Of a stretch of 64,000 nt of DNA, positions 10,071 to 15,213 are shown one piece after another (the stretch's first letter is position 1; every line of letters starts with the position of its first letter). The position numbers and the translations under genes are program-made. The stretch spans positions 124,001-188,000 of the forward strand of contig JABCZR010000002.1 of NCBI GenBank assembly GCA_013289585.1, in the 5' to 3' direction. The DNA is from Acidobacteriota bacterium (GTDB lineage Bacteria; Acidobacteriota; Terriglobia; Acidiferrales; UBA7541). A model generated the notes under the pieces. The model searched no databases and was not told the origin of the DNA. It was given only the letters and a program-made list of their open reading frames with translations.

Positions 10071-11135
10071 TTACCCAGCCGCGCGCATGGCATCGGTTCC
10101 CGAACTGAGAGGGACACGAGCTTGGATGGTAGTACCACGGTTGGCGCGTGAGTCGATAGACATGATCCCGCCGACCAACTTCAGCCGCTCCTTCATACTC
10201 GTCAGTCCAAGTCCGCTTCCCTGCATCATCACGTCGGGGTCAAAGCCAACTCCCGAATCGCGCACGGTGAGCTGAACCGCGTCCGGTGCTCCGCGCAGTT
10301 CTACCGTGAATTGTCGCACCCCGCTATGCTTCAGGGCATTGTGCAGAGCTTCCTGTAAAACCCGAAAGAGACAAAGCGAAACCTCCCCCGGCACGGTAGT
10401 GAGGCCTTCATCGCTGAACTCAATTTTCAGGTTCTGGCGCTCCGCGAACTCTTTGCAAAAGCTGTTCATAGCCGCAGCAACTCCCAGATAGTCGAGTTTC
10501 GGAGGATGCAAGTCGTGCGCCAGGACTTGGACATCTTCCGACATTTCGAGTGTTTGCTTTCGTAGTTGGTCCAGGCGCCTCAGAACTCCGGCGGACGCAT
10601 TTGGCAGGTCTTCCCGAAGTTGCTCGATCCCAATCGCTAACATGGCTAGGCGTTGATTGAAATCATCGTGAAGATCTCTCGCGATCCTGGCTCGCTCCTG
10701 CTCCTGCGTTTCGAGCAACCGACGCGTCATCCGAGACAGTTCCTCCTCGGTCTGCTTGCGCTTGGTGATCTCCTCCACCATAGCAAAGACCAGCGACGGC
10801 CCTCCACTACTCCTCAAGATCGAGACGTTGAGGCGTCCCCAAATTTTTGTGCCATCCCTTTTCACATAGCGTTTTTCAAGCGAGTAGCGATCAATAGCGC
10901 CCGTCCGGAGTTTCTGAAAGAGTGCCCAATCGTCCTGGGAATCCTCCGGGTGCCCGAATTGGGCACAATGCATGTGAGATAGCTCCTCTTTGGAATACCC
11001 CAGCATCGAGGAGAAAGCGCGATTGGTCAGCAGCAGCTTCCCTTCGGTATCCTCCACTGCGATACCTAAGGATGCTTCTTCGAAAAGATAGCGCCATAGT
11101 TTCTCTGGTTCCTCTTGTGTCGCTTCCAAGGACAT
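10071..11135 (-). CDS. PAS-domain sensor histidine kinase, NarX type (HisKA_3/HATPase_c)
   Basis: 354 residues with no membrane segment, so probably a cytoplasmic sensor. PAS domain at about 12-128 (GIAVEDTEGKLLLTNRAFSSMLGYS). HisKA_3 dimerisation domain around ERARIARDLHDDFNQR, with the phospho-accepting His156. C-terminal ATPase with N box (LQEALHNALKHSG), G1 (DSGVGFDP) and G2 (GLGLTSMKERL). The kinase core closely parallels that of the kinase at 12.9-15.2 kb, suggesting duplication. No LuxR-type response regulator is adjacent, so its partner lies elsewhere. Confidence 0.92.
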   Translation of the reverse strand: MSLEATQEEPEKLWRYLFEEASLGIAVEDTEGKLLLTNRAFSSMLGYSKEELSHMHCAQFGHPEDSQDDWALFQKLRTGAIDRYSLEKRYVKRDGTKIWGRLNVSILRSSGGPSLVFAMVEEITKRKQTEEELSRMTRRLLETQEQERARIARDLHDDFNQRLAMLAIGIEQLREDLPNASAGVLRRLDQLRKQTLEMSEDVQVLAHDLHPPKLDYLGVAAAMNSFCKEFAERQNLKIEFSDEGLTTVPGEVSLCLFRVLQEALHNALKHSGVRQFTVELRGAPDAVQLTVRDSGVGFDPDVMMQGSGLGLTSMKERLKLVGGIMSIDSRANRGTTIQARVPLSSGTDAMRAAG

Positions 11136-11337: not shown

Positions 11338-11377
11338 GAAACAAAGGGAGGAGCGGGCCGCGAGGCCCGCCCCTCCC
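11338..11377 (-). terminator. Rho-independent terminator after the Cys-rich peptide gene
   Basis: A 14-bp GC-rich stem with one mismatch around a GCGA loop (11346-11377), followed on the minus strand by TTTGTTT. It begins 25 bp after the stop codon of the 44-aa gene. The T-tract is interrupted. Confidence 0.6.
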
Positions 11378-11401: not shown

Positions 11402-11536
11402 CTAGCACCCGGTACAGGAGGCGCAACAGTCGGCGGAGTCGCAGCATGCTGCGTGGGCTGCATTCGCCGCCTTTGCCGCTCCTGCGATACCGAGAGCGAC
11501 CACTGCTACCAACAGAATTGCTCTGATGATCTTCAT
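11402..11536 (-). CDS. 44-aa exported cysteine-rich peptide
   Basis: A very short gene with a strong ribosome binding site (AAGGAGAAATTC then ATG at 11536) and its own terminator, which makes it credible despite its size. Residues 1-27 form a signal peptide: Lys/Arg N-terminus, hydrophobic ILLVAVVALGIAGAA, and Ala-rich cleavage sites. The mature end is only about 15-18 residues and holds six cysteines (positions 31, 32, 37, 38, 41, 44) in a CC-x4-CC-x2-C-x2-C pattern. That spacing suggests thiol-based binding of soft metals (Cu, Zn, Hg) or disulfide formation in the periplasm; this is inference. It lies 87 bp downstream of, and in the same direction as, another exported Cys/His protein. I recognise no named family. 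Confidence 0.75.
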   Translation of the reverse strand: MKIIRAILLVAVVALGIAGAAKAANAAHAACCDSADCCASCTGC

Positions 11537-11623
11537 GAATTTCTCCTTTTTAGGTGAGGGTTCTTGTCAGCCGATGGCGTCGCCAGCGGTGCGGGGGTGA
11601 TGCAACACTTCTAATGGTTCTTT

Positions 11624-12076
11624 CTAGATGCGAAGGAGGTGCGTTTCGAGGAGGGTGTCTCTGCCGCTGTGCGGGACGGGTTGGGGAAGTCGCGCAAGGC
11701 CGGAAAGGCGAGTGAACTTGAAATGGAGGTCTGAGGGCAGAGCGATATCTTGCGGAGAGGCGGCTCCTGGCGTGGGTGCGCTCCACTTCTGGGTGACAGT
11801 TATCTCCAGAGGGCAGCAGGAGACGGCGGTGTTGGGTTTCTTGTCGTTGGGTGGCGCGGGAGAATTGCCACCAGAGTGGTGGCAGCTGTCCATGTCTGCC
11901 ATCAGGTCCGGCCGGCTGTGGTCGGATGAATTCCGCTGGGTTGCGGATGCGCCCACAATTTGCTGAGAACTGGCGAGGACTGGCTGGGTGCAGCCCATGA
12001 CGCAGGCCAGGGCGGCCATCCACAGAGAAACTGCTGTGGCCAATCCCGCCTTGAAAGTTTGGAACGTGAGGCGCAT
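11624..12076 (-). CDS. Exported Cys/His-containing protein of unknown function
   Basis: 150 residues from ATG 12076, preceded by GGGGAG. A longer frame upstream exists, but this start has the ribosome binding site and directly yields a signal sequence (residues 10-35). VMGC at 26-29 could be a lipobox, so it may be a lipoprotein. The mature part is polar and probably disordered, with potential metal ligands: SDHS at 51-54, SCHHSGG at 64-70 and SCCPLEI at 86-92. It precedes the 44-aa Cys-rich peptide gene and is probably co-transcribed with it. A periplasmic metal-handling role is suggested only by composition and the neighbour. No named family recognised. Confidence 0.65.
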   Translation of the reverse strand: MRLTFQTFKAGLATAVSLWMAALACVMGCTQPVLASSQQIVGASATQRNSSDHSRPDLMADMDSCHHSGGNSPAPPNDKKPNTAVSCCPLEITVTQKWSAPTPGAASPQDIALPSDLHFKFTRLSGLARLPQPVPHSGRDTLLETHLLRI

Positions 12077-12202
12077 TTCTCCCCTAGTATACGCTTTGAG
12101 TGCCAAAACAGTCGCTCTTGTTTCGGGCGTCAAACAGATTTGCTCTTGGGAGTGTGCCAAATTGAACAGTTGCCCTGGTGTCCGTTGTGGGATAGTGCCA
12201 AC

Positions 12203-12400
12203 ATGAAAATGAGAGACATGTCGCCCGAGCTGTTTAACTCCGTGCGTTGTCCGACCTGCCGGGTCGGTCCTGGCAAGGGTTGTGTGCTGCATTCTGGGGG
12301 TCTGCGGGTCGAGCCGCATGTTGACCGAAAGTTGGCGGCGATGGAGGCTGCGGAACTGAATCGCATTCACCTTGTCGAAGGAGGTTCGCATGGCGCTTAA
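12203..12400 (+). CDS. Small zinc-finger protein (phage-type CxxC finger)
   Basis: 65 residues. The motif CPTC-x7-C-x2-H at Cys16, Cys19, Cys27 and His30, followed by EPHVDRKLAA with His39, matches the short zinc-finger module seen in many phage and bacterial DNA-associated proteins ('CPTCG..PG..C...G....H..R'). The family resemblance is from memory and not searched. The 3' end overlaps the start of the STAS gene by 11 bp, so the two are probably translationally coupled. The start is uncertain: Met3 or Met6 are alternatives and none has a strong ribosome binding site. Divergent from the 150-aa exported protein, with 126 bp between them. Confidence 0.6.
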   Translation: MKMRDMSPELFNSVRCPTCRVGPGKGCVLHSGGLRVEPHVDRKLAAMEAAELNRIHLVEGGSHGA

Positions 12401-12752
12401 AACCACTCACACCAGTAAAGACGGGGTTATCGTCGTCCGTCTGAGCGGCGCTATTTATTTCGGCGAAGAGTCCACCGCTCTACGAGTGCTGGTGAAGGAG
12501 TTGTTGGACATATCCCGGCAAATCGTGCTGGACCTCGAGGATGTCACGCACATCGATAGCGGGGGCTTGGGGACTCTCGTATCTCTGCATGCGTCGGCAC
12601 GGAAGGTCGGCGGTGAAATCAAGCTGGCTCAAATTGGCGATCATGCGAGAGAGTTGTTGCAGATCACCAGGCTTATGACGTTGTTTGAGATATTTGACAC
12701 GGTGGAAGATGCGATCGCGTCTTTCAAAAAGGCGGCTGCGGCAAGTTCATAA
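12390..12752 (+). CDS. STAS-domain protein (anti-sigma factor antagonist-like)
   Basis: 120 residues from ATG 12390, chosen because AAGGAGG lies 6 bp upstream. The single domain matches SpoIIAA/RsbV-type STAS proteins: VIVVRLSGAIYF strand, VLDLEDVTHIDSGGLGTL with the D-S-x-G motif at 56-59, and KLAQIGDHARELLQITRL. Such proteins bind anti-sigma factor kinases and are switched by serine phosphorylation; here Ser57 is present and the next position is Gly. No anti-sigma factor or sigma factor is encoded nearby. It overlaps the zinc-finger gene. Confidence 0.88.
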   Translation: MALKTTHTSKDGVIVVRLSGAIYFGEESTALRVLVKELLDISRQIVLDLEDVTHIDSGGLGTLVSLHASARKVGGEIKLAQIGDHARELLQITRLMTLFEIFDTVEDAIASFKKAAAASS

Positions 12753-12903: not shown

Positions 12904-15213
12904 TCATACACTTGCTTCATGTTGTTTCTGCTCGCTTGTGACATGCGCGCTTGTGCTGGACAGCGGAATTCGAACACGAATTCGTGTCCCGTGCGATGGC
13001 TTCGATTCCACCGAAAGGTGTCCCCCGACCAGCCGCAACCGCTCCCGCATGCTGATCAACCCCAATCCGGCTTCTCCCTTTACTGCTTCGGGGTCGAACC
13101 CCCGGCCCGGATCGGAAACGCAAAGATCAATTTCATCAGCTTTGCTTGAAAGCTCAAGCTTAGCCTCCATAGCCCCGCTGTGCTTCACAACGTTCCTCAA
13201 AGCCTCCTGCACGATCCGAAAGAGGCAGAGAGTCACATCCTTAGGGATCTGGCTCGGAACATCATCATGAACAAACTTGATTTGCAATTCGTGCTGCTTG
13301 GAGAGTTCCTTGCATAAGCCCCACACGGCAGGCACCAAACCCAGAGTGTCTAGCTTCGATGGGTGAAGCTGGTGGGACAAGTTGTGGATGTCGGACGACA
13401 ATTCCCTCGTTACTTCTGCTATGTTGTGCAGTTGCTGTCGGGCCTTGGACGAAAGACCGGGCATACCCTGCTCGAACTGCTCGAGGCCAATCGAGAGGAG
13501 CGCTATCCGTTGACTCAAATCGTCGTGTAACTCTCGGGCAATACGGGCGCGTTCTTCTTCTTGGGCATGGATCAGGCGCCCACTCAACTCTTGGAGCGAC
13601 GCTTCTGACAACCTCCGATCCGTAATATCGACGCACGAGCCAATATAGCCACAGAACGTGCCATCGGCTCCAAACCTAGTCACGCCATAGTCAACAATCC
13701 ACCGATATTCTCCGTCAAAGCGGCGCAAGCGGTACTCCATCTCAAAATCCACTCGCGCGTCAAATGCTGCCGAGTAAATGCCCAGACACTGCTCCAGGTC
13801 ATCCGGATGCACCCCGGTGGTCCATCCCTCGCCCAACTCCTGCTCCATTGATCGGCCGGTGAAGTTCAGCCAACCCTTGTTGAAAAAAGTGCACAATTTG
13901 TCCCCGCCCGACATCCAGATCAGCGCAGGAGCGGTATCTGCCACCAACCGGAACCGTTCTTCACTCTCACGCAGCGCCTCTTCGGCTCGCTTGCGCCTCG
14001 CCCCCTGAATTAATAGAGCGAGAATCAAGATTGCTTCGCAGGTGCAGATCGCGAAAACCCCTAGGATGTACCAACGGTAGCGCTCAAAGAGCGACGTCTC
14101 CTTGAATAAGACAATTGTCCCCGGCGGAACGCGGCTCTCACTGATATTCCAATGCTGCAACTCCCTCCAGTCCACTGTTGTATTGCTCTTGGTCTCGACC
14201 GTAACTTGGGGATCGGCCGCTTGTTCACCGCGCAAGGCTCGCGATGCAACTTCAGCCGTGATCACGGCCACGTCCTCGTAATCCAGCATCTGGCCGCCAA
14301 CCAATCCATGTCCAATGTAAGAACGAAAACTGCCATACACCGGCGCATCCGCTGCCCCGCTGATTAGATCCAATGCTTCCTCCGGTGTGAAAAACCTCCC
14401 CGTGCCATCCAGAAAAAAATATGGATAAAAGATAATCGTGTGTGGAGGCAGGACTGCCACCTTCTTCAAAATTTCGTCCATAGGCAAATCGCTTAGATAG
14501 GTAAACTTGATTCCCGGCCGAATCTGGGCAAGCTCCTTCTCCAGCTCGGCCACCCAGTATTTTTCCAAAGGTGTGGCACCGGCCACAGCGACCACTCCTT
14601 GCGTATCCGGCTGCAGCTGGAAGGCCAGCTTGAGCGAATCACCTTGCTGGTTGCGCAGCAGGACCCCGCCGACACTGTGTCTCCCCGCGCGTGCAATGGA
14701 GTTTTTCAGCTCATTGGCAAAGCTGTCTCCAACGCATGAAAAAACAATCGGTGTCTCCGGAAACAAATCTTTCCCGGTCTCCAGCATAAAGTTGAGGGCG
14801 GGATATGACACCGGGATGATCAGGTCTGGTTTCTGCTCGGAAAGCTTCAGGTTTAGCAGCTTATCCAGCAATTCTTCATGGCGCTTACTTGGGAACCGCA
14901 CCAGGTCCAGGAATTCCGTATAGAATTCGATCCTGTCCGGTGACTCGGACTGCAATTTGGAGCGCAAAGTCCGATCGAACTGGTAAAAGAAGTCTTCATC
15001 CTTATCGAACGAATACAGGATCAAAACTCTCTTCGTCTCCCTGCCACTGGCCCCGTAGGACGGCATCCCCGAACTGAATCCCAAGGCAAACAGTACGATT
15101 CCGATGATGACTTGAAATCGCGAGAACCGAAATTTCGGGCCGGAAAGGGGTGCCTCTCGTGGTTTTCGGAGAACGAATTTTGCGCCAACCAGATTGTCGC
15201 TAAGATCCGTCAT
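12904..15213 (-). CDS. Membrane sensor histidine kinase with periplasmic substrate-binding-like sensor, PAS and NarX-type kinase
   Basis: 769 residues. Layout: signal-anchor helix at about 34-54; extracytoplasmic domain at 60-375 resembling ABC-transporter substrate-binding folds (KRVLILYSFDKD, PDLIIPVSYPALNF, TPIVFSCVGD); transmembrane helix at 381-403; PAS at about 415-535 (FFNKGWLNFTGRS); HisKA_3 with phospho-accepting His563 (ERARIARELHDDLSQR); and an ATPase with N, G1 (DPGRGFDP) and G2 boxes. It probably senses an extracellular small ligand and signals to a LuxR-type regulator not present in this window. The kinase half is very similar to that at 10.1-11.1 kb. Confidence 0.9.
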   Translation of the reverse strand: MTDLSDNLVGAKFVLRKPREAPLSGPKFRFSRFQVIIGIVLFALGFSSGMPSYGASGRETKRVLILYSFDKDEDFFYQFDRTLRSKLQSESPDRIEFYTEFLDLVRFPSKRHEELLDKLLNLKLSEQKPDLIIPVSYPALNFMLETGKDLFPETPIVFSCVGDSFANELKNSIARAGRHSVGGVLLRNQQGDSLKLAFQLQPDTQGVVAVAGATPLEKYWVAELEKELAQIRPGIKFTYLSDLPMDEILKKVAVLPPHTIIFYPYFFLDGTGRFFTPEEALDLISGAADAPVYGSFRSYIGHGLVGGQMLDYEDVAVITAEVASRALRGEQAADPQVTVETKSNTTVDWRELQHWNISESRVPPGTIVLFKETSLFERYRWYILGVFAICTCEAILILALLIQGARRKRAEEALRESEERFRLVADTAPALIWMSGGDKLCTFFNKGWLNFTGRSMEQELGEGWTTGVHPDDLEQCLGIYSAAFDARVDFEMEYRLRRFDGEYRWIVDYGVTRFGADGTFCGYIGSCVDITDRRLSEASLQELSGRLIHAQEEERARIARELHDDLSQRIALLSIGLEQFEQGMPGLSSKARQQLHNIAEVTRELSSDIHNLSHQLHPSKLDTLGLVPAVWGLCKELSKQHELQIKFVHDDVPSQIPKDVTLCLFRIVQEALRNVVKHSGAMEAKLELSSKADEIDLCVSDPGRGFDPEAVKGEAGLGLISMRERLRLVGGHLSVESKPSHGTRIRVRIPLSSTSAHVTSEQKQHEASV

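Follow-up and report, generated by a model that had tools for sequence, protein, structure and literature searches.

The window, by which we mean the whole 64,000-nt stretch analysed, carries a two-gene unit on its minus strand. The first gene (P0002; 11624–12076, −) encodes a 150-residue protein with cysteine and histidine motifs and an export-signal-like N-terminus, and is followed, after an intercistronic region of 87 nt (11537–11623, −; 84–98 nt in the intact relatives), by the gene for a 44-residue exported cysteine-rich peptide (P0001; 11402–11536, −). The ribosome-binding site ahead of the peptide gene reads AAAAAGGAGAAATTC-ATG, with the Shine–Dalgarno AAGGAG at 11543–11548 (−), and the unit ends in a strong terminator-like hairpin with a U-rich tail (11346–11377, −), whose G+C-rich stem spans 14 bp and precedes TTTGTTT (11377–11346). 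In each of the four intact relatives a terminator-like hairpin can likewise be made out by eye at this position. The strong ribosome-binding site and own terminator that the original prediction ascribed to the tiny gene are thus both present. A putative −10 element of the unit, TATACT (12086–12091, −), was read by eye only, as it was not picked up by the consensus scan; TATAAT and TACAAT are found at similar places in the congeneric genomes G033 and G002, respectively. Three direct TTGGCAC repeats upstream of the unit (12077–12300, −) may represent an operator; TTGGCA is present in two copies upstream of the unit in G003 and in none of the other relatives.

P0001 has the sequence MKIIRAILLVAVVALGIAGAAKAANAAHA|ACCDSADCCASCTGC, in which the signal peptide precedes the mature part. 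The predicted mature part, ACCDSADCCASCTGC, has ∼15 residues, six of which are cysteine. The tail codons, CCDSADCCASCTGC (11405–11446, −), specify an exact CC-x4-CC-x2-C-x2-C motif with all six cysteines inside the final 14 residues. The coordinates of both ORFs and the motif of the tiny gene were confirmed as first described. Loss of the short gene from related genomes had been named as one outcome that would speak against it; homologues were found in four congeneric genomes (E = 1.4e-11 to 5.6e-9), and the six cysteines are retained in all five intact copies, the G002 peptide having one extra residue before the last cysteine. Pairwise NG86 estimates gave dN of 0.13–0.42 versus dS of 0.7–1.8 for the pairs with a computable dS; the codons of P0001 evolve under constraint, with synonymous exceeding amino-acid changes. 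No Pfam or NCBIfam family scored above threshold, and this includes the metallothionein profiles of Pfam. Outside the genus no credible relative was detected in 399 genomes of the class or 357 of the phylum, and the nine matches to a looser pattern that were examined in 89 genomes of the family were all due to chance. Among the matches listed in a pattern scan of GTDB contigs most were likewise due to chance, and the two genuine ones both came from genomes already known to carry the peptide.

A signal peptide together with conserved cysteines is also seen in the precursors of bufferins, the MNIO-modified copper-chelating RiPPs, some of which stand alone (PMC12452194), and both features are present in P0001. 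P0001 might on this account be such a modified peptide, matured by an MNIO enzyme encoded elsewhere in the genome, and MNIO genes do occur in G002, G003 and G033, with a partial match in G025. The reading nevertheless seems very improbable to us, as no MNIO (PF05114) match is found in the genome of the window, which is 97% complete, or in G001, none occurs among the scanned neighbours of the unit, and the MNIO genes of G002, G003 and G033 are adjoined by a CKG-type cysteine-rich precursor of their own. The likeness extends to the six cysteines of Buf2 and to export of a cysteine-rich peptide, whereas P0001 and its homologues are shorter (42–46 residues) and have no MNIO beside them or, for the window, anywhere in the genome (PMC12452194). 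Separately, the loci L242, L243 and L244 of the genus combine MNIO genes with an exported precursor of the CKGxxxCKGKGGC type and a probable DUF2063-type partner, and so resemble bufferin clusters; a DoxX-like gene is also present in L242 and L243.

The intact two-gene unit occurs in five of the 36 genomes of the genus (that of the window, G001, G002, G003 and G033), and a search of 61 related genomes returned both genes in the same four congeners besides the genome of the window. In all five the genes are adjacent and in the same order, separated by 84–98 nt; the proposed check for co-occurrence therefore finds them always paired. Searches of the family, class and phylum gave no further peptide and no further close partner of P0002. 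In G025 the unit has decayed, only the final few codons (…HLTHLLRI) being left of the first gene and the second lacking its ATG and most of its cysteines, which brings the unit or its remains to six genomes, with a distant homologue in one more. P0002 homologues were not found on plasmids or viral contigs. The surroundings differ between the intact copies: the neighbours are MFP–MFS–TolC efflux genes in G003, whereas G033 has a TonB receptor and G002 an unrelated membrane protein, and in G001 they are tRNA-Thr, an aquaporin-family gene and an ArsC-like gene of the low-molecular-weight phosphatase fold (an ars-like pair) as well as hydrogenase-maturation genes. Within the genus the unit has no known copper gene as a consistent neighbour. 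Because the surroundings differ in this way, we take the unit to be the gene pair alone, without a kinase, and the sensor-kinase context of the original prediction does not hold in the relatives. In the window itself the unit lies between two PAS/HisKA_3 sensor kinases (10071–11135 and 12904–15213, −), the latter with an ABC-substrate-binding-like sensor domain, and no obvious response regulator lies beside them. STAS-domain genes lie near three of the five units (window 12372, L028 13507 and L024 2665; G001 and G002 are included), and STAS proteins are common. A short ORF of the form CPTC…C..HSG, zinc-ribbon-like in appearance (12204–12401, +), stands before the STAS-domain gene of the window and is divergent from the unit.

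The gene order also bears on two further explanations of the peptide. A short ORF rich in cysteine codons that ends ∼25 nt ahead of an intrinsic terminator could be the leader of a cysteine-starvation attenuator that controls a gene downstream. No co-directional gene is conserved beyond the terminator, however, the contexts of the intact copies being all different, and in G001 the gene after the unit is convergent, which contradicts an attenuator; the signal peptide of P0001 is moreover conserved at the protein level, and we regard this explanation as scarcely credible. Alternatively, the patchy occurrence, the variable genomic position and a tiny secreted product capable of forming disulfides would suit a peptide with another role (a signal, an antimicrobial or a disulfide-bonded structural peptide), P0002 being its accessory or immunity factor. 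Such a role appears improbable, in that no gene of a processing, transport or immunity type travels with the pair, P0002 has cysteine and histidine ligands and features like those of LpqS and DUF2946, and the distant homologue described below is encoded beside Cys/His/Met-rich proteins.

P0002 homologues were identified in the four congeners with E = 4.8e-30 to 7.5e-19. Two weaker hits were set aside: a match in G007 (E = 0.004) was absent on profile search, and one in G193 (E = 0.0026) falls within a large gene region that is unrelated. The N-terminus of P0002 is hydrophobic and resembles a Sec-type export signal by eye, and coincides with a helix (residues 3–29) in the AlphaFold2 model; this helix is the only structure in the model (mean pLDDT 48), and the chain beyond it is predicted to be disordered, on the weak evidence of a shallow alignment. 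No relative of solved structure was found. C65, H67, C87 and C88 are invariant in the genus and do not form a CXXC or CxxxC motif. They belong to the C-H-H codons of residues 65–67 (11876–11884, −; CNH in G033) and the SCCPL codons of residues 86–90 (11807–11821, −), of which SCCP is invariant in the genus. The original prediction had singled out HH, CC and SDHS motifs in this protein: CC holds as the invariant SCCP and HH very nearly so (NH in one genome), whereas SDHS is not conserved. The third conserved element is the extreme C-terminus, HxGRDxLLxTxxLRI (last 15 codons, 11627–11671, −), where 10 of the 15 positions do not vary within the genus. P0002 is thus conserved only in its signal peptide, its Cys/His motif and its extreme C-terminus, and the latter two are held at a near-fixed spacing across an unconserved linker of 47–53 residues. 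From the SCCP cysteine to the C-terminal motif there are 48, 53, 47, 49 and 49 residues in the genus and 49 in the distant homologue (G575), whereas the N-terminal side of the cysteine ranges from 42 to 78 residues (standard deviations of 2.1 and 12.8, respectively, for six members). A constant length in a chain with no predicted fold is what the geometry of the ribosomal tunnel plus the Sec channel would demand of a nascent sensor.

No Pfam or NCBIfam family matched P0002 above threshold, as with P0001; the original prediction had recognised neither family. The G002 member gave a near full-length match to LpqS (NF052429; residues 5–136, E = 0.002), and another member gave a match to DUF2946 (PF11162; E = 0.028). 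The best scores among the five members fall below the respective cut-offs, at 18.4 versus 35 bits for the NCBIfam LpqS model and 15.6 versus 23.7 bits for the Pfam gathering threshold of DUF2946.

Further conserved features are found in the nucleotide sequence. The arginine of HxGRD (Arg139; 11660–11662, −), at −12 from the stop, is encoded by the rare AGA in five of five genomes. AGA accounts for only 3% of arginine codons in nine genes of the window and for 0–6% in the neighbouring genes of the relatives, and no other arginine in the five P0002 genes uses it. Shared ancestry would weaken this signal but appears not to remove it, since most of the neighbouring codons vary synonymously. Pairing between the AGAGA stretch and the intercistronic sequence is not conserved. 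The intercistronic region itself contains a hairpin, CCGCTGGC-GAC-GCCATCGG (11571–11589, −), the stem of which is kept in all copies with a changed sequence, and immediately 3′ of it, ahead of the peptide gene, a conserved TGACAAnARC (11560–11569, −), in place of which G002 has CAAACAATAAC. Local hairpins in this region exceed those of shuffled sequences (combined p = 3e-4), an excess that stems mainly from G003 and G002, and folding of the whole region is ordinary in the window copy (z = +0.2). No known RNA family matched. A dispersed repeat was ruled out as the origin of the hairpin, as the hairpin–TGACAA combination occurs a single time in the genome of the window, at the unit. Pairing of the peptide Shine–Dalgarno is not above that of shuffles (combined p = 0.80), and the hairpin that is present does not include it; because the intercistronic hairpins do not mask the Shine–Dalgarno, there is no support for masking in the manner of CutF. 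Control at the intercistronic region may act on transcription elongation, in the style of CruR, or on mRNA processing.

Among 357 genomes of the phylum searched, a profile detected one homologue of P0002 outside the class, in G575 (E = 1.9e-6, the value for this genome). This protein of 166 residues has the same N-terminal and cysteine features and ends in NRGHTYLRCCSFLI. After a gap of ∼130 nt, for which strong folding is predicted (z = −5.7), the next gene encodes an exported protein whose 142 residues include 17 cysteines, 6 histidines and 12 methionines, and the gene after that encodes a protein with a Met-rich region of MPGM repeats. Exported proteins rich in Met, His and Cys are typical of copper handling.

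Taken together, these observations lead us to propose, with about even confidence, that the two genes form one regulated unit in which P0002 is an exported nascent-chain metal sensor and P0001 a periplasmic metal-binding thiol peptide. P0002 would act as a leader while still being translated and exported: with the SCCP/CHH cluster just out of the Sec channel and the invariant C-terminus still in the ribosome, binding of a periplasmic metal, most likely Cu(I), to CHH/SCCP would change how the ribosome advances over the final codons. As a consequence, transcription or translation would be altered over the ∼90 nt, hairpin included, that separate the two genes, and this would set the output of P0001. 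Once cut after its A-x-A site, P0001 would make its six thiols available in the periplasm to Cu(I) or a different soft metal. Arrest, the sensing of metal and its binding by the peptide are all inferred, as is the identity of the metal; copper is named on the strength of the Met/His/Cys-rich neighbours in G575 and the likeness to CutF and CruR. The unit would then probably serve to place a minimal metal-binding peptide, produced under the control of copper, beyond the inner membrane. By analogy with CutF, whose target protects against copper, metal would more likely raise than lower the output of P0001. In favour of the proposal are the strict linkage, with five intact pairs in five gene contexts, and the joint decay of the two genes in a sixth genome. 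Against it stand the narrow distribution in 5 of 36 congeners, the missing proline motif, the sub-threshold family scores, the unmasked Shine–Dalgarno, the ordinary folding of the whole region in the window copy and the inconsistent presence of copper genes nearby.

The original prediction had suggested a periplasmic metal buffer or chaperone pair. In this reading both proteins would accumulate beyond the inner membrane, and P0002 would bind metal through CHH/SCC and exchange it with the cysteine peptide. Both products are exported-looking, share soft-metal ligands and are always encoded next to each other, and the arrangement recurs in G575, where the second protein is larger and carries Cys, His and Met. 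The conserved exported Cys/His pair stands and its link to metal is likely. A buffer would, however, need neither the near-fixed spacing from cysteine to C-terminus nor an invariant end that is not rich in ligands; the rare AGA is fixed, no fold is predicted, and an intercistronic region of 90 nt with conserved elements is unusual in a simple operon. Given the conservation pattern of P0002 and its near-fixed spacing, the chaperone idea is weaker than that of a regulator and its target, and we consider it unlikely.

The sensor–target reading is best judged against CutF and CruR, DUF2946 proteins that are exported, sense copper during their own synthesis and act in cis on the gene that follows (PMC9426467, PMC9973294), and that are marked by an export signal, a cysteine motif and a C-terminal arrest motif ∼45 residues on (PMC9973294, PMC9426467). 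Leaders of the CutF/CruR type are present in the genus, as a DUF2946 scan yielded 11 bona fide CruR genes (L212–L215, L217, L218, L224, L225, L234, L239 and L241), in which CXXC is always separated from RAPP by 44 residues, the intercistronic regions contain hairpins and the next gene encodes a TonB-receptor-like protein that has a carboxypeptidase-regulatory-type start. The arginine of RAPP is encoded by CGC, CGT or CGA in these genes, not AGA, and the corresponding codon in G575 is CGC. As in CruR of Bordetella pertussis (PF11162; PMC9426467) and in the CruR–TonB operons of the genus, P0002 is a leader-like ORF with a fixed spacing from cysteine to C-terminus, followed by a long intercistronic region with hairpins, after which an ACAA stretch is seen by eye in 7 of the 11 local cases. 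It differs in lacking CXXC and RAPP, in scoring below the Pfam cut-off and in a target that is not a TonB receptor; by sequence the unit keeps the geometry of the local CruR genes with both motifs replaced. With CutF of Rhodobacter capsulatus cutFOG (PMC9973294) it has in common an exported first gene with a cysteine motif, a C-terminal motif ∼45 residues after the cysteines, a short intercistronic region with a stem–loop and a downstream product that is periplasmic (here by prediction). CutF, however, has CxxxC and a proline-rich end in place of CHH plus SCC and HxGRDxLLxTxxLRI, a Shine–Dalgarno downstream for which the unit has no equivalent predicted masking, and a multicopper oxidase rather than a 44-residue peptide as its target; the CutF product itself is reported to be undetectable in cells. 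In G033 a possible further CutF-like leader, in this case His-based, follows closely downstream of the pair. It is an exported protein of 105 residues (L029:10356–10673) that contains HWDHT, ends in GPPPLELRI and is encoded immediately upstream of a TonB-dependent receptor.

LpqS (NF052429), a putative mycobacterial copper-homeostasis (lipo)protein, is weakly matched over nearly its full length, whereas P0002 has no clear lipobox. Small metallothioneins have a very high density of cysteine in a very short peptide, as does P0001, which differs in its predicted export and in a CC-x4-CC-x2-C-x2-C pattern unmatched by Pfam. P0002 is most likely, judging from its sequence, a sensor of the CutF/CruR kind in altered form with a minimal exported thiol peptide as its target. 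It carries no Pro-Pro or RAPP arrest motif at its C-terminus and has HxGRDxLLxTxxLRI in its place. The list of CutF-like proteins was built by requiring a C-terminal proline pair, and proline-free families would have been missed by it (PMC9973294). It is therefore possible, although on balance somewhat doubtful, that P0002 belongs to a new class of exported arrest peptides that respond to metal, with a proline-free motif (HxGRDxLLxTxxLRI, or NRGHTYLRCCSFLI in the distant class) and a selected rare AGA, that its target is among the smallest exported thiol peptides known, and that the two genes form a portable sense-and-chelate cassette. Metal sensing by an exported chain would then be broader than catalogued and reach the Acidobacteriota with a different C-terminal motif, and the controlled thiol peptide of ∼15 residues would be simple enough for direct synthesis.
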